This document shows, piece after piece, positions 1,985 through 11,038 of a DNA stretch of 11,047 nucleotides (position 1 is the first letter of the stretch; each line of letters begins with the position of its first letter). The position numbers were made by a program, and so were the translations under genes. The notes below the pieces were generated by a model that was not told where the DNA came from, ran no database searches, and worked only from the letters and a program-made list of their open reading frames with translations. The stretch spans positions 1 through 11,047 of the forward strand of contig CALYQE010000059.1 in assembly GCA_945281075.1 (NCBI GenBank), given 5' to 3'. Origin of the DNA: an uncultured Lactobacillus sp. Its GTDB lineage: Bacteria > Bacillota > Bacilli > Lactobacillales > Lactobacillaceae.

Positions 1985-2731
1985 TTAAAAAATTAAATTT
2001 ACATTTTTTTGTTTAAAATATTCTACCCATTCAGTATCAGGTTTTTTATCCGTAATTACATCACTCAATTTTGAAATATCTATTAGATGAACAAAACCTT
2101 TTTTCCAAAATTTAGTGGAGTCTACAAGAAGATAGACTTCATTTGCTTGCTCAATCATAATCTTCTTAATTACGGCTTCAGAATCTGTTGAGTCTGTGAC
2201 ACCTTGAGCTATATCTAAGCCCTTACAGCTAATTAAGGCAACATCCACATTGTAGTTTCTTAAAGTACGCTCCGCAATCACACCATGAAATGAAAGGCTT
2301 TGTCTATCTAATATTCCACCTGAAGAAATAAAGTTGGCTTTGCCATTGTATAGTTGCCTAGGAACTTCAGCAGAATTAGAAACAATTGTCAAATTTGTAT
2401 CCCTTAGAAATTTGATGGCATTGACAACCGTCGAACTTGAATCAGCAAAAACACTACTGTAATTTTTCAACAGTGATGTAACTTTTAAAGCTATCTTATC
2501 TTTATTTTCTTTGTTTCTAGCTAAGCGTCTATAAAACGGTACTGCAAAATCAATTTTAGATTCATTTAGAATTGCCCCACCATATGTACGAGTAATTAGC
2601 CCTTCTGATTCAAGTTGACTTAAATCCCTTCTAATAGTCTGATTTGTAACACCAAATTTTTTACTTAAATCAGAAATATTAACAGAATGATTATCTATCA
2701 AATCTTTTTTTATTAATTCTATTCTTTCCAT
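1985..2731 (-). CDS. DeoR-family sugar-metabolism repressor
   Basis: A cytoplasmic DNA-binding repressor of 248 residues, the usual size for the family. The N-terminus is a DeoR winged helix-turn-helix (about residues 1-55, with VTNQTIRRDL as recognition helix and RTYGGAI ending the wing). The rest matches the DeoR sensor domain: FADSSST, IVSNSAE, SSGGILDRQSLSFHG, LISCKGLD and LVDSTKFWKKG, which in the family bind phosphorylated sugar intermediates. ATG at 2731 is preferred: it puts the HTH at the normal distance from the N-terminus and has a partial GGGA Shine-Dalgarno. An in-frame GTG at 2743 would add four residues but has its purine run directly against it. Its position beside the divergent locus suggests that it controls those two operons; this is inference from context. 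Sites 6268-6283 and 6449-6465 are candidate targets. Confidence 0.9.
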   Translation of the reverse strand: MERIELIKKDLIDNHSVNISDLSKKFGVTNQTIRRDLSQLESEGLITRTYGGAILNESKIDFAVPFYRRLARNKENKDKIALKVTSLLKNYSSVFADSSSTVVNAIKFLRDTNLTIVSNSAEVPRQLYNGKANFISSGGILDRQSLSFHGVIAERTLRNYNVDVALISCKGLDIAQGVTDSTDSEAVIKKIMIEQANEVYLLVDSTKFWKKGFVHLIDISKLSDVITDKKPDTEWVEYFKQKNVNLIF

Positions 2732-2763
2732 ATAAGTTCCCACTTCCGACAGTCTTTAAATCT

Positions 2764-2820: not shown

Positions 2821-2854
2821 AAATAAGACCAAGTTTAAAGACTTGATCTTATTT
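2821..2854 (-). terminator. Intrinsic terminator of the aldolase operon
   Basis: AAATAAGACCAAGT (2821-2834) and ACTTGATCTTATTT (2841-2854) form a 14-bp stem with one mismatch and a 6-nt loop. On the minus strand the hairpin is followed by a T-rich tract. It lies 46 nt after the aldolase stop and ends the minus arm before deoR. Confidence 0.75.
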
Positions 2855-2900: not shown

Positions 2901-3755
2901 TTAATAATTATCTAGTTTTAACTCGGCCTTACTCTGTGAACCAAGTACGTGAATCTTATGAACAGCCTCATCTTTTATCCCCTCACGAACATATTTTTGA
3001 ACCTCAAGGTAAAGCTGATCACGATGTTTATTAAATGCTTTCATAGCCGCAATACCAAGATCAGTATGAATATTAACCTTGCAAATTCCCATTGAAACTG
3101 CCTTAGAAACTTGATCATCCGGAATTCCCGATGCGCCATGCAGAACTAGTGGAACCGACACCACATTAGATACTTTTTCTAATACATCAAAATTAAGGCT
3201 TGGCTTTGAAGTATATACGCCATGAACTTGACCAATTGCAACCGCTAAAGAGTCACAATGCGTTTGATCCACAAATTTTTTAGCAATCGATGGATCGGTA
3301 TATTTATAGTTCTCCATTGCCTTTTCATATTTATTTGGATCCGCCACATGACCAAGCTCAGCCTCAACACCAACATTCAAAGGGTGAAAATATTCAACTA
3401 CTTTTTTCGTTTCGGCAACATTTTCTTCAAACGATAGCTGAGAGGCATCACGCATTACAGAATTCATACCATAATCATATCCATTTTTAACGATATCAAA
3501 ACTGCGTCCATGATCCCAATGTGTTATTACTGGTAATGATGAATGCTTTGCCATTGAGACCATCATGCCAGCGTATTCCTCAAAAATAGTATTATGGATA
3601 AAACCTGTACCAAATGAAATAATCACAGGTGAATTTTCCTGCTCACAGGCATCCATTACTCCTTCAAGCATTTCGACGTTCCAAACATTAAAATGAGGAA
3701 TTGCAAAATGGTTTTTTTGAGCAATTTTTTCCCAATATCTTACATCTGCCAACAT
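2901..3755 (-). CDS. Class II (zinc) ketose-(bis)phosphate aldolase, GatY/KbaY/FbaA family
   Basis: A cytosolic TIM-barrel aldolase cleaving a ketose phosphate to dihydroxyacetone phosphate and an aldehyde. From ATG at 3755 it has 284 residues, the length of GatY/KbaY tagatose-bisphosphate aldolases. Catalytic Asp81 and zinc ligand His82 lie in THWDHGR; the other zinc histidines are His178 (GQVHGVY) and His206 (LHGASG). The phosphate-binding GASGIPDD and NIHTDL segments are present. These positions agree within two residues with Asp82, His83, His180 and His208 of GatY. His230 in NIHTDL is unusual: fructose-bisphosphate aldolases usually have Asp and tagatose enzymes Ala there. The substrate may therefore be a different ketose-1-phosphate or bisphosphate. 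A GGGAG lies 10 nt before the ATG; a TTG three codons upstream is too close to it. It follows the dehydrogenase by 20 nt and is last in its operon. Confidence 0.9.
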   Translation of the reverse strand: MLADVRYWEKIAQKNHFAIPHFNVWNVEMLEGVMDACEQENSPVIISFGTGFIHNTIFEEYAGMMVSMAKHSSLPVITHWDHGRSFDIVKNGYDYGMNSVMRDASQLSFEENVAETKKVVEYFHPLNVGVEAELGHVADPNKYEKAMENYKYTDPSIAKKFVDQTHCDSLAVAIGQVHGVYTSKPSLNFDVLEKVSNVVSVPLVLHGASGIPDDQVSKAVSMGICKVNIHTDLGIAAMKAFNKHRDQLYLEVQKYVREGIKDEAVHKIHVLGSQSKAELKLDNY

Positions 3756-3775
3756 TATATTCAATCTCCCAAAAT

Positions 3776-4852
3776 TTAATCATCAAAATCATAATGAAAT
3801 ACAACTTTTATAGCTGACTTGTCAGCCATAGCATCAAAGCCCTTCTGCCACTCTGAAAGACCATATCTATGGGTAATCATTGATTCAACATCGACCTTAT
3901 GAGCAGCCAACAATTTTGTCGTCCGACGCCAAGTTGATGAACTATAGGCTTGATGCCCTTTAATATCAATGTTCCACTCAGTAATACGGTTAATTGGGTA
4001 ATTAAATGATTTATATCCCATACCCACACGTACAATTGTTGCATTTGGGCAAACCATTTCAATAGATTGATGTAAGGCTACCATTGCTCCAGAACATTCA
4101 ATAACAGTGCCCAGGTTCTCTTCTCCAATTATTTCCTTGCAGCGCTTCACTACATCTTCTTTGGAACCGTTAACGCAGTCCGTAGCCCCCAATTTCTTAG
4201 CTATATCAAAACGATATTTGGTATCTGCATCAAGGCCAACCACGACTATCTTCAAAGCACCTATTAGTTTAGCTATCTGTACTGAAAAAAGACCTAAAGG
4301 GCCCGTACCAAACACTACCACATCATCGCCAGGTTTTAATCCGGATTGTTCAGCTACTGCTTTATAAGCATTACTAATAGGATCAAGACAACTTGCCTCT
4401 TCATATTTGACATTATCTGGAATTCTCCAAAGTGCATGTTTGTGAATACGCAAAATTTCACCAGGAACTAAGCAGTATTTTGTAAAGCCGCCACCCCAGT
4501 GATTATTATCTAAACCTAAGTTGATTTTATGTGGACAAAGTAAGAAATCACCCTCATCACAAGCGGGACACAATCCACAAACATGACCAGTATTGTCAGA
4601 AACTACTCTATCGCCAACTTTCCAGTCAGTAACCTTGCTTCCAACTTTAACAACATCACCCGCAAATTCATGTCCACGAATAGAGTTAAAATCTTTTGAT
4701 CCATTATCAACTTTATAATGTTTCATATCCGCGCCGCAAATTGTTGCAGCCTTAATCTCAATTAAAACATCTTCCGGACCCACTTCAGGCACCGGTACAT
4801 CAATCATTTTATAGCCACCAAATGGCTTACCATAGCGAGCTAATGCTTTCAT
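3776..4852 (-). CDS. Zinc-dependent medium-chain dehydrogenase, polyol or sugar type
   Basis: Predicted NAD(P)-dependent oxidoreductase of 358 residues, interconverting an alcohol and a ketone on a polyol or sugar. The N-terminal GroES-like domain carries catalytic zinc ligands Cys39 (ICGAD) and His61-Glu62 (GHEFAG), and a complete structural-zinc set Cys92, Cys95, Cys98 and Cys106. The Rossmann domain has GTGPLG near 182-187 and the strand VVVGLDAD, where the usual NAD-selecting Asp position is shifted, so the cofactor is uncertain. Asp157 (LDP) replaces the Glu of the EP motif that completes the catalytic site in sorbitol dehydrogenases. The start at 4852 is chosen because the glycine-rich family start MKALARYG begins there with GAAGG 8 nt upstream; a longer frame to 4930 would overlap the preceding gene. 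It lies 19 nt after the MFS stop, clearly co-transcribed. Threonine/butanediol dehydrogenase-like activity is less likely from context. Confidence 0.88.
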   Translation of the reverse strand: MKALARYGKPFGGYKMIDVPVPEVGPEDVLIEIKAATICGADMKHYKVDNGSKDFNSIRGHEFAGDVVKVGSKVTDWKVGDRVVSDNTGHVCGLCPACDEGDFLLCPHKINLGLDNNHWGGGFTKYCLVPGEILRIHKHALWRIPDNVKYEEASCLDPISNAYKAVAEQSGLKPGDDVVVFGTGPLGLFSVQIAKLIGALKIVVVGLDADTKYRFDIAKKLGATDCVNGSKEDVVKRCKEIIGEENLGTVIECSGAMVALHQSIEMVCPNATIVRVGMGYKSFNYPINRITEWNIDIKGHQAYSSSTWRRTTKLLAAHKVDVESMITHRYGLSEWQKGFDAMADKSAIKVVFHYDFDD

Positions 4853-4871
4853 ATCATTTACCTTCTTTCCT

Positions 4872-6233
4872 TTATATTGAACCAATTTCTTCAACAGATT
4901 TTCCTCTGGTTTCAATCCCAAAAATTCCAATCATAAGAGCAGTAATTAAACAAGTAACACCAAGTAGTATAAAAACACCGGTAACACCAACTGTATCTAA
5001 TAATTTAGCAACTACGAACGGAACAATAATTCCACTAATTCTACCTATTGCATTACATATACCTGACCCTCGTAATTTTGCATTTGTCGGCCAAATTTCA
5101 GGAACATACACTGCTGAGGCATAACAAACAAACATATAGACTGAGATCATTAAAAAGAAGCCTAAAATTGAAATCATTAGCATTCCTTTTTGTAATGAAT
5201 AAATATAGCCTAAAATAGCCATAATGCTCAATAAGCCTATTCCCATTGCTTTTCGTGGAATTTTATCCATTATTAAAGTGGCTATAAATATGCCTACAGG
5301 TGCCCCAAACATATTCATGGTATTGAGAAAAACAGAATTTTTAATATTAATTCCTTGTGTTAAAAACATTGTTGGTAGCCAATTTATCAAAGTATATTGC
5401 GTAACGTTCATTGCAATTAACGAAAAGGAACCTAAAACAACTCTCTTCAAAAGGTCACCTTTAAATAGTTCAGAATAAGAAATATTCTGTTTAATATTCA
5501 CATTTTCTTTCTTGGCACTGGGCAAATTACTATGAGTTTCTTTAATTACTTCATTTTCAATGCTAGTTAACACTTTTGTCGCTTCATTATAGCGTCCCTT
5601 AGATTCTAACCATCTAGGACTCTCGGGAAAGACCTTCCATGCAACACAAGAAATGAGGCTGGACAGAACAGCCGGAATTATGAATTGCAAACGCCAATTC
5701 ATATCGGGGGCAACTGTTTCCGTTAAAAACATTGCAATTACTGAACATACTGGATATGACCAGTTTCCAATAAAAGAAACACGTGATGACCAAGTACCTC
5801 TACTTCTTGAAGGCATATATTCAGTAAAGCTAGCAAAAAGAATTGTTAACAGTGCACCTAAAGCTATACCCATAAAAAAGCGGTCAAACATCAAGAAACT
5901 CATATTCGGAGACGCAGCTGCAATTATCATTGTTAATATATGCATCACCTCAAAAAACAAAAATGTTTTCTTTCTACCTGATCTATCTCCTACATAACCA
6001 CCTAGCAAAGCTCCAAAAAACATTCCTGCAGTACTTAAAGAAGTGAACAAAGCAGTTAAATTATTATTAGTCCAGCCGATGGTTTTTAACTGTGCCAAAA
6101 CTAGTCCACCAATTGCATTGCTCCAGCATGTTAATAGCGCAAATCCTACAATGAGAAATATTTTCCAATGAAATTTACTTGTTGGAAGTCTATCCAGTCT
6201 GGATCCCGCATGAGGTATTTTTCCATTTTCCAT
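4872..6233 (-). CDS. MFS sugar/polyol transporter (minus arm)
   Basis: A 453-residue major facilitator of the sugar porter-like group, placed in the cytoplasmic membrane with about 12 hydrophobic segments and a cytoplasmic loop near 210-260. Family marks in order: GGYVGDRSGRKK (78-89, loop 2-3 motif), RFFMG (118-122), FPESPRWLE (202-210), PEIWPTNAKLRGSG (378-391) and ETRGKSVEEI (441-450). It probably imports the substrate unphosphorylated by cation symport. The AAGGAGG Shine-Dalgarno 5 nt before the ATG is ideal. It opens the minus-arm operon with the dehydrogenase and aldolase. It is collinear with the plus-arm MFS: the PRK and ETR motifs fall at nearly the same residue numbers. The two are clearly paralogues but well diverged, so different substrates are plausible. 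Confidence 0.9.
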   Translation of the reverse strand: MENGKIPHAGSRLDRLPTSKFHWKIFLIVGFALLTCWSNAIGGLVLAQLKTIGWTNNNLTALFTSLSTAGMFFGALLGGYVGDRSGRKKTFLFFEVMHILTMIIAAASPNMSFLMFDRFFMGIALGALLTILFASFTEYMPSRSRGTWSSRVSFIGNWSYPVCSVIAMFLTETVAPDMNWRLQFIIPAVLSSLISCVAWKVFPESPRWLESKGRYNEATKVLTSIENEVIKETHSNLPSAKKENVNIKQNISYSELFKGDLLKRVVLGSFSLIAMNVTQYTLINWLPTMFLTQGINIKNSVFLNTMNMFGAPVGIFIATLIMDKIPRKAMGIGLLSIMAILGYIYSLQKGMLMISILGFFLMISVYMFVCYASAVYVPEIWPTNAKLRGSGICNAIGRISGIIVPFVVAKLLDTVGVTGVFILLGVTCLITALMIGIFGIETRGKSVEEIGSI

Positions 6234-6267
6234 TTTGACCTCCTTATTAGAAAGTCCTTATTACTAT

Positions 6268-6283
6268 TTGAGTCATGACTCAA
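6268..6283. promoter_or_regulatory. Perfect 16-bp palindromic operator at the minus-arm start site
   Basis: TTGAGTCATGACTCAA is its own reverse complement over all 16 bases. It lies 2 bp downstream of the minus-arm -10 region (6286-6291), covering the expected transcription start, an ideal repressor position. No second copy was found in the window. The neighbouring DeoR protein is the nearest candidate binder, but this is not shown. Confidence 0.65.
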
Positions 6284-6285
6284 CT

Positions 6286-6316
6286 TTTATACTAGGCTAA
6301 AAATGTCAAAAGTCAA
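6286..6316 (-). promoter_or_regulatory. Promoter of the MFS-dehydrogenase-aldolase operon
   Basis: The minus strand has TTGACT (6311-6316), a second TTGACA just downstream, and TAGTATAAA over 6286-6294. TTGACT with TAGTAT gives 16-bp spacing; with TATAAA it gives 19 bp. This is the strongest sigma-A-like signal in the divergent region, and the start site falls in the palindrome. Confidence 0.6.
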
Positions 6317-6332
6317 TATTATTTTTATTTTT

Positions 6333-6346
6333 TGTTTTCGTTTAAT
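6333..6346 (-). promoter_or_regulatory. cre-like site upstream of the minus-arm promoter
   Basis: The minus strand reads ATTAAACGAAAACA, matching TGWAANCGNWWNCA except at the first two positions. It lies about 16 bp upstream of the -35 box. Only moderately convincing because the surroundings are so A/T-rich. Confidence 0.35.
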
Positions 6347-6448
6347 ACATTAATTATTTATTAAAGTGTTGTTTTATCAGCATTTATTGCAGAACAGTTT
6401 GCCTTATTATTTTATTTTGCATTCTTTTTTTACATTTTATGTTTCAAA

Positions 6449-6465
6449 ACAACATTTTTTGTTGT
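6449..6465 (+). promoter_or_regulatory. Inverted-repeat operator in the plus-arm promoter
   Basis: ACAACA (6449-6454), five T, then TGTTGT (6460-6465) form a perfect 6-5-6 inverted repeat ending 2 bp before a CATAAT -10 candidate (6468-6473). A TGTTGT half-site also occurs at 6367-6372. The arms resemble the TGTTT-rich sites of DeoR-family repressors such as LacR and FruR, so the adjacent DeoR protein is a reasonable binder. It is unlike the 16-bp palindrome on the other arm. Confidence 0.45.
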
Positions 6466-6467
6466 AC

Positions 6468-6473
6468 CATAAT
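6468..6473 (+). promoter_or_regulatory. Candidate -10 box of the plus arm
   Basis: CATAAT lies 36 bp before the MFS start codon, between the inverted repeat and the cre-like site. No good -35 hexamer is found at 16-18 bp, so this promoter would be weak or regulator-dependent, unless the true start lies further upstream in the T-rich stretch. Confidence 0.35.
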
Positions 6474-6486
6474 GTTAGCGATTTCA
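6473..6486 (+). promoter_or_regulatory. cre (CcpA) site at the plus-arm start
   Basis: TGTTAGCGATTTCA matches cre consensus TGWAANCGNWWNCA with one mismatch (T for A at position 4). It directly follows the candidate -10 box, covering the likely start site, a typical repression position. It is the best cre match in the window. Confidence 0.6.
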
Positions 6487-6509
6487 AAAAATACGAAAAG
6501 AGGATAGAA

Positions 6510-7907
6510 ATGAATAATGGATATAGTTCCGAACTAGTTCTAGATAATTTACCTTTCTCACGGTGGCATCTAGAGAATTTCTTTATTTTAGGATTTGGTT
6601 TACAAATCAACGGTGTTCTCAATTCTTCTGGAAATTCAATTCTAGCTGATTTGGTTCATAAAGGTTGGTCTAATAATTATTTGAATGCAGCTTTTTCGTC
6701 AGTCATGATGACTGGATTCTTTATTGGATCACTATTTGGCGGTTGGCTCGGTGATAAATTAGGTAGAAAACTTTCAAATGAAATAGCAATCATTATCTTT
6801 ACGAGCTTTTCATTATTAGCAGCTTTTTCACCAAATATGGTTTTTTTGATTATTTGCAGAGGACTAATGGGTATTGGTATGGGAGCAGGAATCGAATTAG
6901 GTTATGGCTCTTTTACTGAACTAATTCCAGCTAAATTTAGAGGCAAATGGCAGGCTATGCTATCCTGCTTCGGTAATCTTTCACCGTTAATTGCTTCGAT
7001 AGTTTGTTTGCTAGCAATCCCTACAACCGGATGGAGATCTGTTTTTATAATTTGTTCTGTTTGTGGTTTTATTTCTTTCGTCTTCTTTTATCGATTTTTT
7101 CGAGAATCGCCTCACTGGTTATTGCAAAATGGTTATAAAAAAGAAGGTGAACATTTAATTAAGGAAATAGTAAACAAAGTAGAAAAAGAACAGGGACACA
7201 AAATAAACATACCAAAAGAAAAATTGACTACGCCAATTGAAAACCAAAGGAAAGTCAACATTCCCTTAAAATATTTCTTTTATGGCGCTCTAGGTAGAAG
7301 AACTTTGGTTTGCTCCGTCACACTAATAGCAATGAACTTAGCCTTATACACCATTAATAATTGGATTCCAACAATTTTTGTGAATAATGGCATAACTGTT
7401 ACTAAATCTTTATTAATGACGACTATTATGATCATCGCCGCTCCAGTAGGAACTTTCGCATCAACATTAATTATGGAATTTTTACCTAGAAAATGGTTTG
7501 GCGGAATTTTTATTATTGCTATCGCTATTTTGGGGTATATTTATGCGCAGCAAAGAAGTGAAACTAATATTTTAGTCATTGGTTTTCTAATGATTTTCAT
7601 TCTTTACATTTATAACAGTTTCTCTTCTGCTGTATATGCTACAGAACTTTGGCCTACGCAAGTCAAAATGCGCGGACTTGGTATATCAAACGCAATTGGT
7701 CGCTTTGTTGCTATTACTTCTCCATATTTAATTGCCTGGCTTTTAACTGATTTTGGCGTTATGGCTGTTTTTATCACATTAGGTGTTTTATTAGGTCTTT
7801 GTGCATTAATTATTTTCTTATTTGGAATTGAAACCAGAAAAAAAACTATTAATGAAATTGACAGTTCTATTAATTTAAAAACTAACAAGGAGGTTAATCA
7901 TGCATAA
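6510..7907 (+). CDS. MFS sugar/polyol transporter (plus arm)
   Basis: A 465-residue major facilitator permease in the cytoplasmic membrane, paralogous to the minus-arm transporter. Marks: GGWLGDKLGRK (77-87), CRGLMG (116-121), FRESPHWLL (197-205), a cytoplasmic loop with many charged residues (about 208-255), TELWPTQVKMRGLG (378-391) and ETRKKTINEI (441-450). ATG at 6510 is chosen: AGAGGA lies 5-6 nt upstream and the protein then aligns end to end with its paralogue. The frame is open to an ATG at 6366, but that 48-residue extension would overlap the promoter, inverted repeat and cre site. The gene overlaps the next one by 8 bp, implying translational coupling. It probably imports an unphosphorylated polyol or sugar for the dehydrogenase encoded next. 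Confidence 0.9.
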   Translation: MNNGYSSELVLDNLPFSRWHLENFFILGFGLQINGVLNSSGNSILADLVHKGWSNNYLNAAFSSVMMTGFFIGSLFGGWLGDKLGRKLSNEIAIIIFTSFSLLAAFSPNMVFLIICRGLMGIGMGAGIELGYGSFTELIPAKFRGKWQAMLSCFGNLSPLIASIVCLLAIPTTGWRSVFIICSVCGFISFVFFYRFFRESPHWLLQNGYKKEGEHLIKEIVNKVEKEQGHKINIPKEKLTTPIENQRKVNIPLKYFFYGALGRRTLVCSVTLIAMNLALYTINNWIPTIFVNNGITVTKSLLMTTIMIIAAPVGTFASTLIMEFLPRKWFGGIFIIAIAILGYIYAQQRSETNILVIGFLMIFILYIYNSFSSAVYATELWPTQVKMRGLGISNAIGRFVAITSPYLIAWLLTDFGVMAVFITLGVLLGLCALIIFLFGIETRKKTINEIDSSINLKTNKEVNHA

Positions 7908-8952
7908 TACAAAAGCTGTTCTTAAAGAACCAGGCCAAATGATAATCAAGGATTCAGAGATTGGTGACCCTAAGGATAATGAGGTGCAAGTTAAAGTCTG
8001 CGACGTGAGCATTTGTGGGTCGGATATGCACGGGTTTACCGATGGCCCGTATTTACCACCTAAGGATCCAAAACAAGAAATAGGTTTGGGGCACGAAACA
8101 GCTGGAATAATTTCGAAAGTTGGCAAAAAGGTTAAAAATTTTAAGGTTGGTGATAGAGTTGCTATTGAACCTGGGGTACCTGATGGAACATGTGATTTTT
8201 GCCTATCTGGGCACTATAATGTTTGTCCAAATGTTGATTTCTTAGCAACAGCACCTAATTATAAAGGTTCGCTTACAAACTATATAAATCACCCAGCAGA
8301 ATGGACATACCATCTACCTGACAATATGAGCTTAGTTGAAGGCGCAATGACTGAACCTGCATCAGTTGCTATTCATGCTGCAGAATCAGCTGGTAATTTA
8401 CTTGGCAAAACTGTAATCATTTTAGGTGCAGGTGCTGAGGGATTGTTAACCACCATGGCCGTAAAAATTGCTGGTGCAGCTAAAGTTGTAGTTATCGATG
8501 TTATGGAAAATCGTCTGATGAAGGCTAAAGAACTAGGTGCAAATGCCACTTTCAACGGTAAAGACAAAAATATCGTCAGTGAAATTAAGTCAGTTGTGGG
8601 TAAAATTGGTGCCGACTTTGTTTACGAATGTGCGGGAAGTAATGCAACGGCTCAAATTGGGCTAAAAGTTGTCAAAAACACTGGAACATTTTTCATTCTG
8701 GGAACGATTCCCGGAACCACACCAGTTGAATTTCTCAAAATAAACCGTGAAGTAACAATTCATACCCTTTTTAGATACGTTAATGACTATCCTAAGACTA
8801 TCAAAATGATTGCAAGTGGAAAATTCAATGTTATGTCCATTGTTGATAAGTACTTTGTATATAACGATATCCAAAAAGCATTCGAATTTGCAACCCAACA
8901 CAAGAGCGATTTTATTAAAAGCGTAGTGATAGTCGACAAGTCATACAGGTAA
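7900..8952 (+). CDS. Zinc-dependent polyol dehydrogenase, sorbitol/xylitol dehydrogenase family
   Basis: A 350-residue medium-chain dehydrogenase expected to oxidise a polyol to a ketose with NAD. Catalytic zinc ligands Cys39 (ICGSDMHG), His65-Glu66 (GHETAG) and Glu152 (TEPASVAIHA) are all in place. The HPAEWTYHLPDNMSLVEGAMTEP stretch is typical of sorbitol, xylitol and L-arabinitol dehydrogenases. The Rossmann fold has GAGAEG (176-181), and Asp200 after VVVI indicates NAD rather than NADP. Of the four structural-zinc cysteines only Cys98, Cys101 and Cys109 remain; Asp95 occupies the first position, so this site may be altered or empty. AAGGAGG lies 6 nt before the ATG inside the MFS gene, which it overlaps by 8 bp. 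It resembles polyol dehydrogenases more than the minus-arm enzyme does. The actual polyol cannot be read from the sequence. Confidence 0.9.
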   Translation: MHNTKAVLKEPGQMIIKDSEIGDPKDNEVQVKVCDVSICGSDMHGFTDGPYLPPKDPKQEIGLGHETAGIISKVGKKVKNFKVGDRVAIEPGVPDGTCDFCLSGHYNVCPNVDFLATAPNYKGSLTNYINHPAEWTYHLPDNMSLVEGAMTEPASVAIHAAESAGNLLGKTVIILGAGAEGLLTTMAVKIAGAAKVVVIDVMENRLMKAKELGANATFNGKDKNIVSEIKSVVGKIGADFVYECAGSNATAQIGLKVVKNTGTFFILGTIPGTTPVEFLKINREVTIHTLFRYVNDYPKTIKMIASGKFNVMSIVDKYFVYNDIQKAFEFATQHKSDFIKSVVIVDKSYR

Positions 8953-8961
8953 GGTGAAAAA

Positions 8962-9912
8962 ATGTCACAAGACGTAATTTGTGTAGGAACTGCTTTAGTT
9001 GATATTCCTTTATTCCCAATTACACCCAAGATACTGGATGAGGTTTCAGCGCCAATCGAAGATATATCCATGAAAATTGGTGGCGATGCTATCAATGAGG
9101 CGATCATTATCTCCAGATTGGGCAAAAAAGTTTCATTGGTTAGCGCTGTGGGCGATGATGTTGCTGGACACTATGTTATCAAGATGGCTAAAAAAAATAA
9201 GGTCGACATTTCTAATTTAAAGATTGATTCTCGACTAACAACTTCAATTAATGTTGGACTAGTAAAGCCTGATGGCCAAAGAACCTTTATTACAAATAAG
9301 AATGGCAGTTTGTGGAAGATGGACGAAACAGACATTGATTTTAGTTCAATTAATAACAGTAAAATTCTGTCTATGGCAAGTATCTTCAATAACCCGTTAA
9401 TTGATGACCAAGTCATCCTCAAGATTTTTAAACAAGCAAAAAAAGAAAATATGCTTATCTGTGCAGACATTGATGCACCCCGTTTGGGCGAAACAATCGA
9501 TGATATTAAATATATTCTACCTTACATCGATTACTTCTTTCCGAACGACAAAGAGGCTGCCCATCTAACTGGTTTAACCGGCCTTGAAAACCAAGCCAAC
9601 CTACTGCTTAAATTAGGCGTTAAAAATATCATTATCAAGACAGGAGATCAAGGTTGCTTTATCAAAAACAAGTATTTAATGAAGTTTATTCCTTCATTTA
9701 AAGTGCCATCCAAATTTGACATTGATACTACTGGAGCCGGAGACAATTTTGCAGCAGGTTTTATATCTAAACTAGTTGAAGGTGAAAGCTTTGAAAATTG
9801 CGCACTATTTGGCAACGCAGTCGCCTCTATTTCAGTAAGAGAGCTAGGTGCAATAAATGGTTTGAAAAATAAAGACCAAGCTGAACAGTTAATAACAAAA
9901 CGTAAAAGATAA
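8962..9912 (+). CDS. PfkB/ribokinase-family sugar kinase
   Basis: A cytosolic ATP-dependent carbohydrate kinase of 316 residues, normal for the family. The N-terminal PfkB signature is GGDAINEA (40-47); the C-terminal one is DTTGAGDNFAAGF (255-267), with Asp261 as catalytic base and the GAG anion hole. Asn195-Asp-Lys-Glu and KTGDQG (226-231) are the usual nucleotide-site segments. It does not match a single named subfamily (ribokinase, fructokinase, 1-phosphofructokinase or KDG kinase) well enough to name a substrate. In context it probably phosphorylates the ketose made by the dehydrogenases, giving a ketose phosphate for the aldolase on the other arm. The Shine-Dalgarno AAGGTG overlaps the preceding stop, and the gap is 9 nt. 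Confidence 0.9.
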   Translation: MSQDVICVGTALVDIPLFPITPKILDEVSAPIEDISMKIGGDAINEAIIISRLGKKVSLVSAVGDDVAGHYVIKMAKKNKVDISNLKIDSRLTTSINVGLVKPDGQRTFITNKNGSLWKMDETDIDFSSINNSKILSMASIFNNPLIDDQVILKIFKQAKKENMLICADIDAPRLGETIDDIKYILPYIDYFFPNDKEAAHLTGLTGLENQANLLLKLGVKNIIIKTGDQGCFIKNKYLMKFIPSFKVPSKFDIDTTGAGDNFAAGFISKLVEGESFENCALFGNAVASISVRELGAINGLKNKDQAEQLITKRKR

Positions 9913-9925
9913 GGAGTTACAAAAT

Positions 9926-10897
9926 ATGAAATTAGGAGACAATATGCAAGTTTCACGTATTGGATTAGGCACTTGGGCACTAGGTGGAGGGCCAGCGTTT
10001 ACAGACTATAACAACCATCAATCAGCCATAGAGACAATAAGGGGAGCATTAAAATATGGTATTAATTTGATTGATACTGCACCAGGTTATAATTTCGGCG
10101 AAAGTGAGAAGTTAGTTGGAGAAGCTATCAAAGAAAATAGGGAGAAATACACTATTATTACTAAATGTGGAATAACTTGGGAAAGACAAGGGGCTTTCTT
10201 TAATAAAGTTGGGGAACGATCCTTATATAAAAACTTGTCTCCTGAATCAATTTCTTTGGAATTATTCGATACATTAAAGAGACTGCAAACTGATTATATT
10301 GATGTCTATATGACTCACTGGCAATCAGTTGAGCCTTATAAAACACCAATTTCAGAAACCATGAGATATTTGATGGAATTAAAGGAGAAGGGAATAATTC
10401 GCGGAATTGGTGCGGCAAATGTTAACGCTAATGATGTGCGAGAATATCTTAAATACGGTCAACTTGATATTATACAATGCCGTTATAGTATCCTTGATCG
10501 GGAAGTTGAAAAAGACTTGCTACCACTTTGCAAAGAAAATAATATTGTTTTAGAAGCTTACTCACCACTGTCAATGGGTATCTTATCAGGCTCAGTGCCA
10601 CGTGACTATGTACCGCCTAAAGGTTCTGCACGAAATGGCAAAAAGTGGTTTAAACCCGAAAATTTAGTAAAAGTTGATGACATGCTTGACGCTTGGCAAC
10701 CTTTATGCCAGAAGTACAATTGTACGTTAGCTAACTTAGCCATTGCCTGGGTTCTTAACCAAAGCGAAAACGTTAATGTGTTGAGTGGATCTACATCCCT
10801 TGATCAATTAGATGAAAACAGTAAAGCAATGAATATTAAAATTGAGCCAAATGATCTCGCACGAATGAGAAAGATGGCTGAGGCTTTGGATAATTAA
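9926..10897 (+). CDS. Aldo/keto reductase
   Basis: A cytosolic NAD(P)H-dependent TIM-barrel oxidoreductase of 323 residues, resembling the IolS/YdhF-like bacterial group. The full catalytic tetrad is visible: Asp50 and Tyr55 (IDTAPGYNFGES), Lys80 (ITKCG) and His131 (MTHWQ). IGLGTWALGG at the N-terminus, IRGIGAANV (158-166) and LSGSTSLDQL near the C-terminus are family features. AAGGAG overlaps the kinase stop and lies 9 nt before the ATG; the gap is 13 nt, so it is the last gene of the operon. Likely role (inference): reduction of the aldehyde released by the aldolase, for example glyceraldehyde, glycolaldehyde or lactaldehyde, with redox recycling. Oxidation of an incoming sugar is an alternative. 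Confidence 0.9.
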   Translation: MKLGDNMQVSRIGLGTWALGGGPAFTDYNNHQSAIETIRGALKYGINLIDTAPGYNFGESEKLVGEAIKENREKYTIITKCGITWERQGAFFNKVGERSLYKNLSPESISLELFDTLKRLQTDYIDVYMTHWQSVEPYKTPISETMRYLMELKEKGIIRGIGAANVNANDVREYLKYGQLDIIQCRYSILDREVEKDLLPLCKENNIVLEAYSPLSMGILSGSVPRDYVPPKGSARNGKKWFKPENLVKVDDMLDAWQPLCQKYNCTLANLAIAWVLNQSENVNVLSGSTSLDQLDENSKAMNIKIEPNDLARMRKMAEALDN

Positions 10898-10993: not shown

Positions 10994-11038
10994 AAAAGCA
11001 TCCCAATCCATAATCGAATTTATTTTAGGGATGCTTTT
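10994..11038. terminator. Strong hairpin terminator closing the plus-arm operon
   Basis: AAAAGCATCCC (10994-11004) and GGGATGCTTTT (11028-11038) form a perfect 11-bp stem with a 23-nt loop. T-rich DNA follows on the plus strand, and the A-run on the left makes it usable from the other side. It is about 96 nt after the reductase stop, so it may be shared with a convergent gene beyond the window. Confidence 0.75.

Follow-up and report, generated by a model that had tools for sequence, protein, structure and literature searches.

The window analysed here (11,047 nucleotides, contig CALYQE010000059.1 of assembly GCA_945281075.1, from an uncultured Lactobacillus sp.) carries at positions 2901-10897 seven metabolic genes in two divergent arms, with a DeoR-family regulator gene adjoining. 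Together the eight genes almost certainly form a complete ydj cluster in a Lactobacillaceae genome. Jointly with the kind of route that this membership implies (uptake without a phosphotransferase system, PTS; dehydrogenation; phosphorylation of a ketose at C1; class II aldol cleavage; reduction of the resulting aldehyde), the reading has a probability of about 0.87. A first-pass annotation, made from the sequence alone, had proposed the same succession of steps and regarded the gene set as uncharacterised and unnamed. The steps fit what is reported for E. coli YdjH and YdjI; the novelty does not hold, because the genes are the lactobacillus version of the E. coli ydj cluster, which is known, partly studied and named 'carbohydrate utilization cluster Ydj' (PMC4556653; PMC7065263). 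Orthologous loci thus already belong to a known pathway, which the annotation had itself named as a ground for refutation, as far as the ydj pathway has been assigned. With the claim of a new pathway removed, the locus is tied to a cluster whose ydjLKJIHG promoter in E. coli is reportedly switched on in the mouse gut (PMC6561318).

Gene-for-gene correspondence with E. coli ydjEFGHIJKL

The window's list of open reading frames (ORFs) contains the seven genes at the coordinates given in the first-pass annotation, and the DeoR gene as well. Pfam assigns the products to DeoR, class II aldolase, zinc dehydrogenase (two genes), major facilitator superfamily (MFS; two genes), PfkB and aldo/keto reductase (AKR) families, the main family in each case scoring well above its cut-off. 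In protein comparison the eight genes pair one-to-one with E. coli K-12 ydjEFGHIJKL at 45-68% identity; no two of them share a best partner, and the runner-up scores lower. The left dehydrogenase, for example, scores 528 bits against YdjL vs 143 against YdjJ, and the closest case is the right MFS transporter, with 393 bits against YdjE vs 298 against YdjK. In the reverse direction, YdjH selects the window kinase first (327 bits vs 107, among eight of the ten PfkB places of its own genome), and YdjI selects the window aldolase first (354 bits vs 170, among all seven class II aldolases of that genome).

The best matches in the PDB are 6ofu (YdjI) for the aldolase (375 bits; next 185), 3h49 (YdjH) for the kinase (338 bits; next 108) and 5vm2 for the right dehydrogenase (395 bits; next 237). 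By sequence, 5vm2 is YdjJ, with 2 of 347 residues deviating from the E. coli protein. The best solved relative of the AKR is IolS of the B. subtilis type (169 bits), and those of the left dehydrogenase are threonine dehydrogenases (162 bits), so neither protein has a close solved structure. In RefSeq, YdjH is named octuluronate kinase and YdjI octuluronate-1-phosphate aldolase.

Phylogeny, residues and conservation of the gene set

A maximum-likelihood tree of 39 aldolases places the window enzyme inside a YdjI clade of 15 rows (support 100/100; present in 100% of 200 bootstrap trees). Outside it lie GatY, KbaY and FbaA, together with the six further class II aldolases that the window's own genome encodes; one of these six (L057) joins nearby without firm support (89/78). 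Among the rows of the tree are 14 of 26 non-YdjI loci and 9 aldolase homologues from the 120 listed out of 507 (sequences of 18 were retrieved). Asp81, His82, His178 and His206, presumably the catalytic and zinc residues to judge from family knowledge, are invariant in 38/38 aldolases (15 YdjI-type and 23 others, FbaA being excluded from the residue counts). Arg84 and Arg102, which adjoin the universal Asp81-His82 and Asp103, occur in 15/15 YdjI-type and 0/23 other aldolases, and the window enzyme keeps both. The report on the YdjI structure is said to point out a pair of unusual arginines close to the active site, which may be Arg84 and Arg102. For the kinase, six YdjH-type sequences were compared with four of the seven own-genome paralogues offered, three being dropped for short alignment: Asp255 and Asp261, which are universal, are retained, and the positions specific to YdjH include Trp118, Lys119 and Arg174. 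The window's own assembly (1.84 Mb, rated 76% complete) holds seven class II aldolase genes including that of the window (C59, C105, C177, C132, C68, C87 and C56), of which those of C132 and C68 sit very near each other in the aldolase tree.

The gene set recurs as a whole. A contig scan with the aldolase returned 28 loci, two of which, L010 (90% identity) and L011 (68%), both from Lactobacillaceae, carry all eight genes. The complete set occurs in 0/26 of the others (L012-L037, at most 42% identity; four of these contigs are shorter than 10 kb), which have no further member at E 1e-20 except two with a 29-30% dehydrogenase match. All seven genes and the DeoR gene are found in 6/6 YdjI-type loci whose context was examined: the window, E. 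coli, Klebsiella (L046), L010, L011 and G1111, a genome of the same order and another family. They do so in four arrangements. In E. coli and Klebsiella a single strand carries all the genes, arranged L-K-J-I-H-G-F-E, whereas the window, whose host also differs in phylum from E. coli, has divergent arms K-L-I-F and E-J-H-G; this arrangement is shared by L010, where the proteins are 74-90% identical. L011 differs in that ydjL ends the other arm (K-I-F and E-J-H-G-L), and in G1111 the set is split, with roughly 7 kb between a block F-E-J-H-G and a block K-L-I. As order varies in L011 and G1111 too, it is not treated as defining. The recurrence of the eight genes through these arrangements suggests that both arms probably serve one pathway, and an assembly of two unrelated operons is rejected on the same ground. 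Complete but shuffled sets in distant hosts indicate all eight genes, including both dehydrogenases and both transporters, as one pathway, a unity that constrains any search for the ydj substrate.

The cluster is rare among the sampled relatives. The aldolase was found at E 1e-60 in 3/397 Lactobacillaceae genomes, and 2/397, counting the window, have the cluster; around the third match (G049, 40% aldolase), a 20 kb stretch (L045) gives only the aldolase and a 36% DeoR match. The order sample gave the aldolase in 2/395 genomes, the window included, and the family of G1111 in 1/105. In the phylum sample (398 with the window), neither the aldolase at E 1e-80 nor the YdjL-type dehydrogenase at E 1e-120 was found in any of the 397 other genomes; in all these genome samples just the few best candidates of each genome are scored, so misses are possible. 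In E. coli, 4204/5426 genomes contain a ydjI match of at least 95% identity. A protein search found 507 aldolase relatives at E 1e-80 among 7999 candidates scored, the best 120 of the 507 all being at least 59% identical, and the sources among the 120 matches listed include Brachyspira, Gilliamella, Enterococcus, Loigolactobacillus, Amphibacillus, Anaerococcus, Atopobiaceae and Lachnospiraceae. In the tree, E. coli and Klebsiella YdjI nest within a mixed-taxon YdjI group. This nesting and the scattered distribution suggest horizontal spread, and the rarity of the aldolase in the sampled Lactobacillaceae (2/397) suggests horizontal gain.

Some of the related loci show peculiarities of their own. 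In Klebsiella L046, the ydjL and ydjE regions (8406-9536 and 15850-17215) match in two pieces each, with no listed gene; both genes may be broken, the gene table omitting pseudogenes. In E. coli NZ_CP115361 (2091713-2093326), ydjI is apparently interrupted by an IS1 element, judging from feature names. In L011, an ORF that by eye resembles aldose-1-epimerases (11964-12890) directly follows deoR and is possibly part of that ydj locus, and ORFs of other apparent kinds (by eye) lie between the two blocks of G1111. Hydrolase or isomerase genes that might give away the substrate were looked for in the sequence flanking related loci, by eye on ORF lists and with no family search, but to no avail. 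One contig of a Clostridia-like metagenome-assembled genome (L028, 10001-15500) carries five consecutive class II aldolase-like stretches.

The predicted route and its alternatives

In the route suggested by the orthology, the MFS transporters YdjK and YdjE would import a long-chain sugar acid or a related compound, which YdjL and YdjJ would oxidise, or oxidise and re-reduce, to a 2-ketose with a terminal carboxylate. YdjH would then phosphorylate this ketose at C1, and YdjI would cleave the 1-phosphate to dihydroxyacetone phosphate (DHAP), which would enter glycolysis, and a shorter aldehyde acid, to be reduced by YdjG. YdjF would act as a repressor as long as no inducer is present, perhaps at the palindrome between the arms. 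We infer the dehydrogenase steps, transport and regulation, as well as the retention of the E. coli specificity in the lactobacillus enzymes. For E. coli, YdjH and YdjI reportedly favour long sugars that end in a carboxylate, and the shorter aldehyde acid produced in the YdjI assay was L-arabinuronate; activity of the kinase on octuluronate and of the aldolase on octuluronate-1-phosphate is reported for E. coli only. The substrate of the lactobacillus locus is probably carboxylate-ended as well.

The first-pass annotation was thus right about the kind of route, through a ketose 1-phosphate; its polyol or neutral rare sugar is less likely as the substrate, because Arg84 and Arg102 are kept. A neutral pathway would use ydj-type genes of changed specificity: a polyol dehydrogenase would yield a ketose, PfkB would turn this into its 1-phosphate, and the aldolase would split the latter into DHAP and a neutral aldehyde for reduction by the AKR. 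Its order of steps is identical to that of the ydj route, the YdjJ-type dehydrogenase is similar to both sorbitol dehydrogenase and a ketose reductase, and the literature searched gave no assay of any lactobacillus enzyme of the set. However, such a pathway sits poorly with the reported preference of E. coli YdjH and YdjI and with the YdjI-specific arginines in the window, and we hold it to be rather unlikely. A locus of the tagatose- or fructose-bisphosphate type, in which a GatY, KbaY or fructose-bisphosphate aldolase is accompanied by miscellaneous dehydrogenases, would account for an aldolase score above the cut-off of the broad model TIGR00167 and for 188-242 bits against GatY, KbaY and tagatose-bisphosphate models. 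The window aldolase shares family and universal residues with the E. coli gat and kba enzymes. Yet it misses every listed fructose- or tagatose-bisphosphate equivalog cut-off (249 vs 343 bits for TIGR01859; 226 vs 444 for TIGR01858); GatY/KbaY, besides falling outside the YdjI clade, carry Thr/Ile and Glu/Ile where YdjI-type enzymes have Arg84/Arg102; and the gat and kba loci contain PTS genes, which are absent from the two operons of the window. On the tree and the NCBIfam cut-offs this explanation is rejected as barely conceivable. YdjG is also reported to reduce methylglyoxal, with the speculation that this is a reason for expression in the gut (PMC6561318), and the locus might accordingly be a stress or detoxification cluster centred on its AKR. 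That would leave unexplained why the pair of transporters, the pair of dehydrogenases, the kinase and the aldolase stay together in 6/6 loci; methylglyoxal detoxification as the main role is very improbable and was rejected.

Several points weigh against the ydj reading or the carboxylate substrate attached to it. The E. coli side of the protein comparison was limited to nine proteins (the ydj region and YeaE), and the reverse search covered two of the eight genes and own-genome paralogues only. With 498 bits, the AKR stays under the 550-bit cut-off of the NCBIfam YdjG equivalog, despite its clear orthology to YdjG and a wide lead over the next model (112 bits). An identity of 52-59% leaves room for drift in the specificity of the kinase and aldolase. 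Binding of the carboxylate by Arg84 and Arg102 is a role that we infer from their position in the sequence, and the best YdjI substrate is described as having no natural abundance (PMC9602453).

More tentatively, and with somewhat less than even odds, the ydj set may be a mobile catabolic module of eight genes, unconstrained in their order, whose substrate would be a natural sugar acid of the gut, a C7-C9 keto-uronate. If so, the rare lactobacilli that acquired the module, and the palindrome between its arms, would provide a Gram-positive host for tracing this compound. Expression of YdjF, YdjL and YdjG in gut metatranscriptomes is mentioned in PMC10117117, and the E. coli ydj operon has been linked to lactic acid resistance.

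Coordinates, regulatory signals and neighbouring genes

The features are collected in the table below. Several gene starts were corrected inside the listed ORFs by alignment to E. coli and the position of ribosome-binding sites: the aldolase start was set at 3755, that of deoR possibly at 2731, the YdjL-type dehydrogenase is listed from 4930, the match to YdjL beginning at residue 27 and the start thus lying 26 codons inside, and the right-arm MFS start was placed behind a Shine-Dalgarno-like AGAGGA. With gaps of 19 and 20 bp in the left arm, and an 8 bp overlap followed by gaps of 9 and 13 bp in the right arm, the spacing within both arms is operon-like.

Table. Features of the ydj locus and its signals in the window (identities are to the E. 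coli K-12 proteins)
Feature	Position	Strand	Evidence
DeoR-family regulator, YdjF orthologue	1985..2743 (start possibly 2731)	-	45% to YdjF over 248 aa; DeoRC and HTH_DeoR domains
Terminator-like hairpin between aldolase and deoR genes	2821..2854	-	14-pair stem, T-rich tail; fold z -4.7
Class II ketose-1-phosphate aldolase, YdjI orthologue	2901..3755	-	59% to YdjI; PDB 6ofu; YdjI clade 100/100
Zinc-dependent dehydrogenase, YdjL orthologue	3776..4852	-	68% to YdjL over 358 aa
MFS transporter, YdjK orthologue	4872..6233	-	63% to YdjK, 43% to YdjE
Palindrome TTGAGTCATGACTCAA, 16 bp, perfect; candidate left-arm operator	6268..6283	.	15/16 bases kept in L010, same place
Promoter-like TTGACT-16-TAGTAT, facing left arm	6289..6316	-	both hexamers kept in L010 alignment
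MFS transporter, YdjE orthologue	6510..7907	+	47% to YdjE, 38% to YdjK
Zinc-dependent dehydrogenase, YdjJ orthologue, sorbitol-dehydrogenase-like	7900..8952	+	52% to YdjJ; PDB 5vm2
PfkB-family kinase, YdjH orthologue	8962..9912	+	52% to YdjH; PDB 3h49
Aldo/keto reductase, YdjG orthologue	9926..10897	+	58% to YdjG; NCBIfam YdjG model 498 bits
Terminator-like hairpin after right arm	10994..11038	+	11-pair outer stem; fold -18 kcal/mol, z -4.5

Both hairpins out-fold 200/200 shuffles. The one after the right arm is not among the sites listed by a window-wide terminator scan, which counted 8 terminator-like sites vs 6.8 (sd 2.8) in shuffles; promoter-like sites numbered 39 vs 44.9, so that neither class is in excess beyond the spread. 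The divergent region measures 276 bp, and in it TTGAGTCATGACTCAA lies just downstream of the left-arm promoter-like sequence. The palindrome is a candidate operator only, and its conservation in one close relative, L010, is modest evidence. A further match with 3 mismatches lies elsewhere in L010, at position 2279, and none was found within 3 mismatches in L009, L011, L043, L046 or L047. The available part of the window's own genome holds no second site with up to 2 mismatches, a uniqueness that means little because about half a chance match is expected in a genome of that size, by estimate. A second, weaker inverted repeat lies at 6449-6465, upstream of the right arm, with an imperfect one nearby in L010 where the sequence is poorly kept. 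Two patterns, one of them applied to the + strand alone, revealed no catabolite-repression (cre-like) site, and Rfam at gathering thresholds gave no match in the window.

Residue 95 of the YdjJ-type dehydrogenase, inspected by eye, is Asp in the window and L010 (PDGTC) vs Cys in E. coli YdjJ, L011 and G1111. As this is the position of the first structural-zinc cysteine, structural zinc binding may differ here.

The absence of PTS components noted by the first-pass annotation is true of positions 2901-10897, but the same window contains a lactose/cellobiose-family PTS EIIC gene at 3-1334 on the minus strand, truncated at the contig start. Between it and deoR lie about 650 bp without an obvious gene. 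The EIIC gene is 84% identical to a counterpart adjoining the ydj set in L010, beyond which further ORFs resemble, by eye, DUF871, MurQ and PTS proteins.

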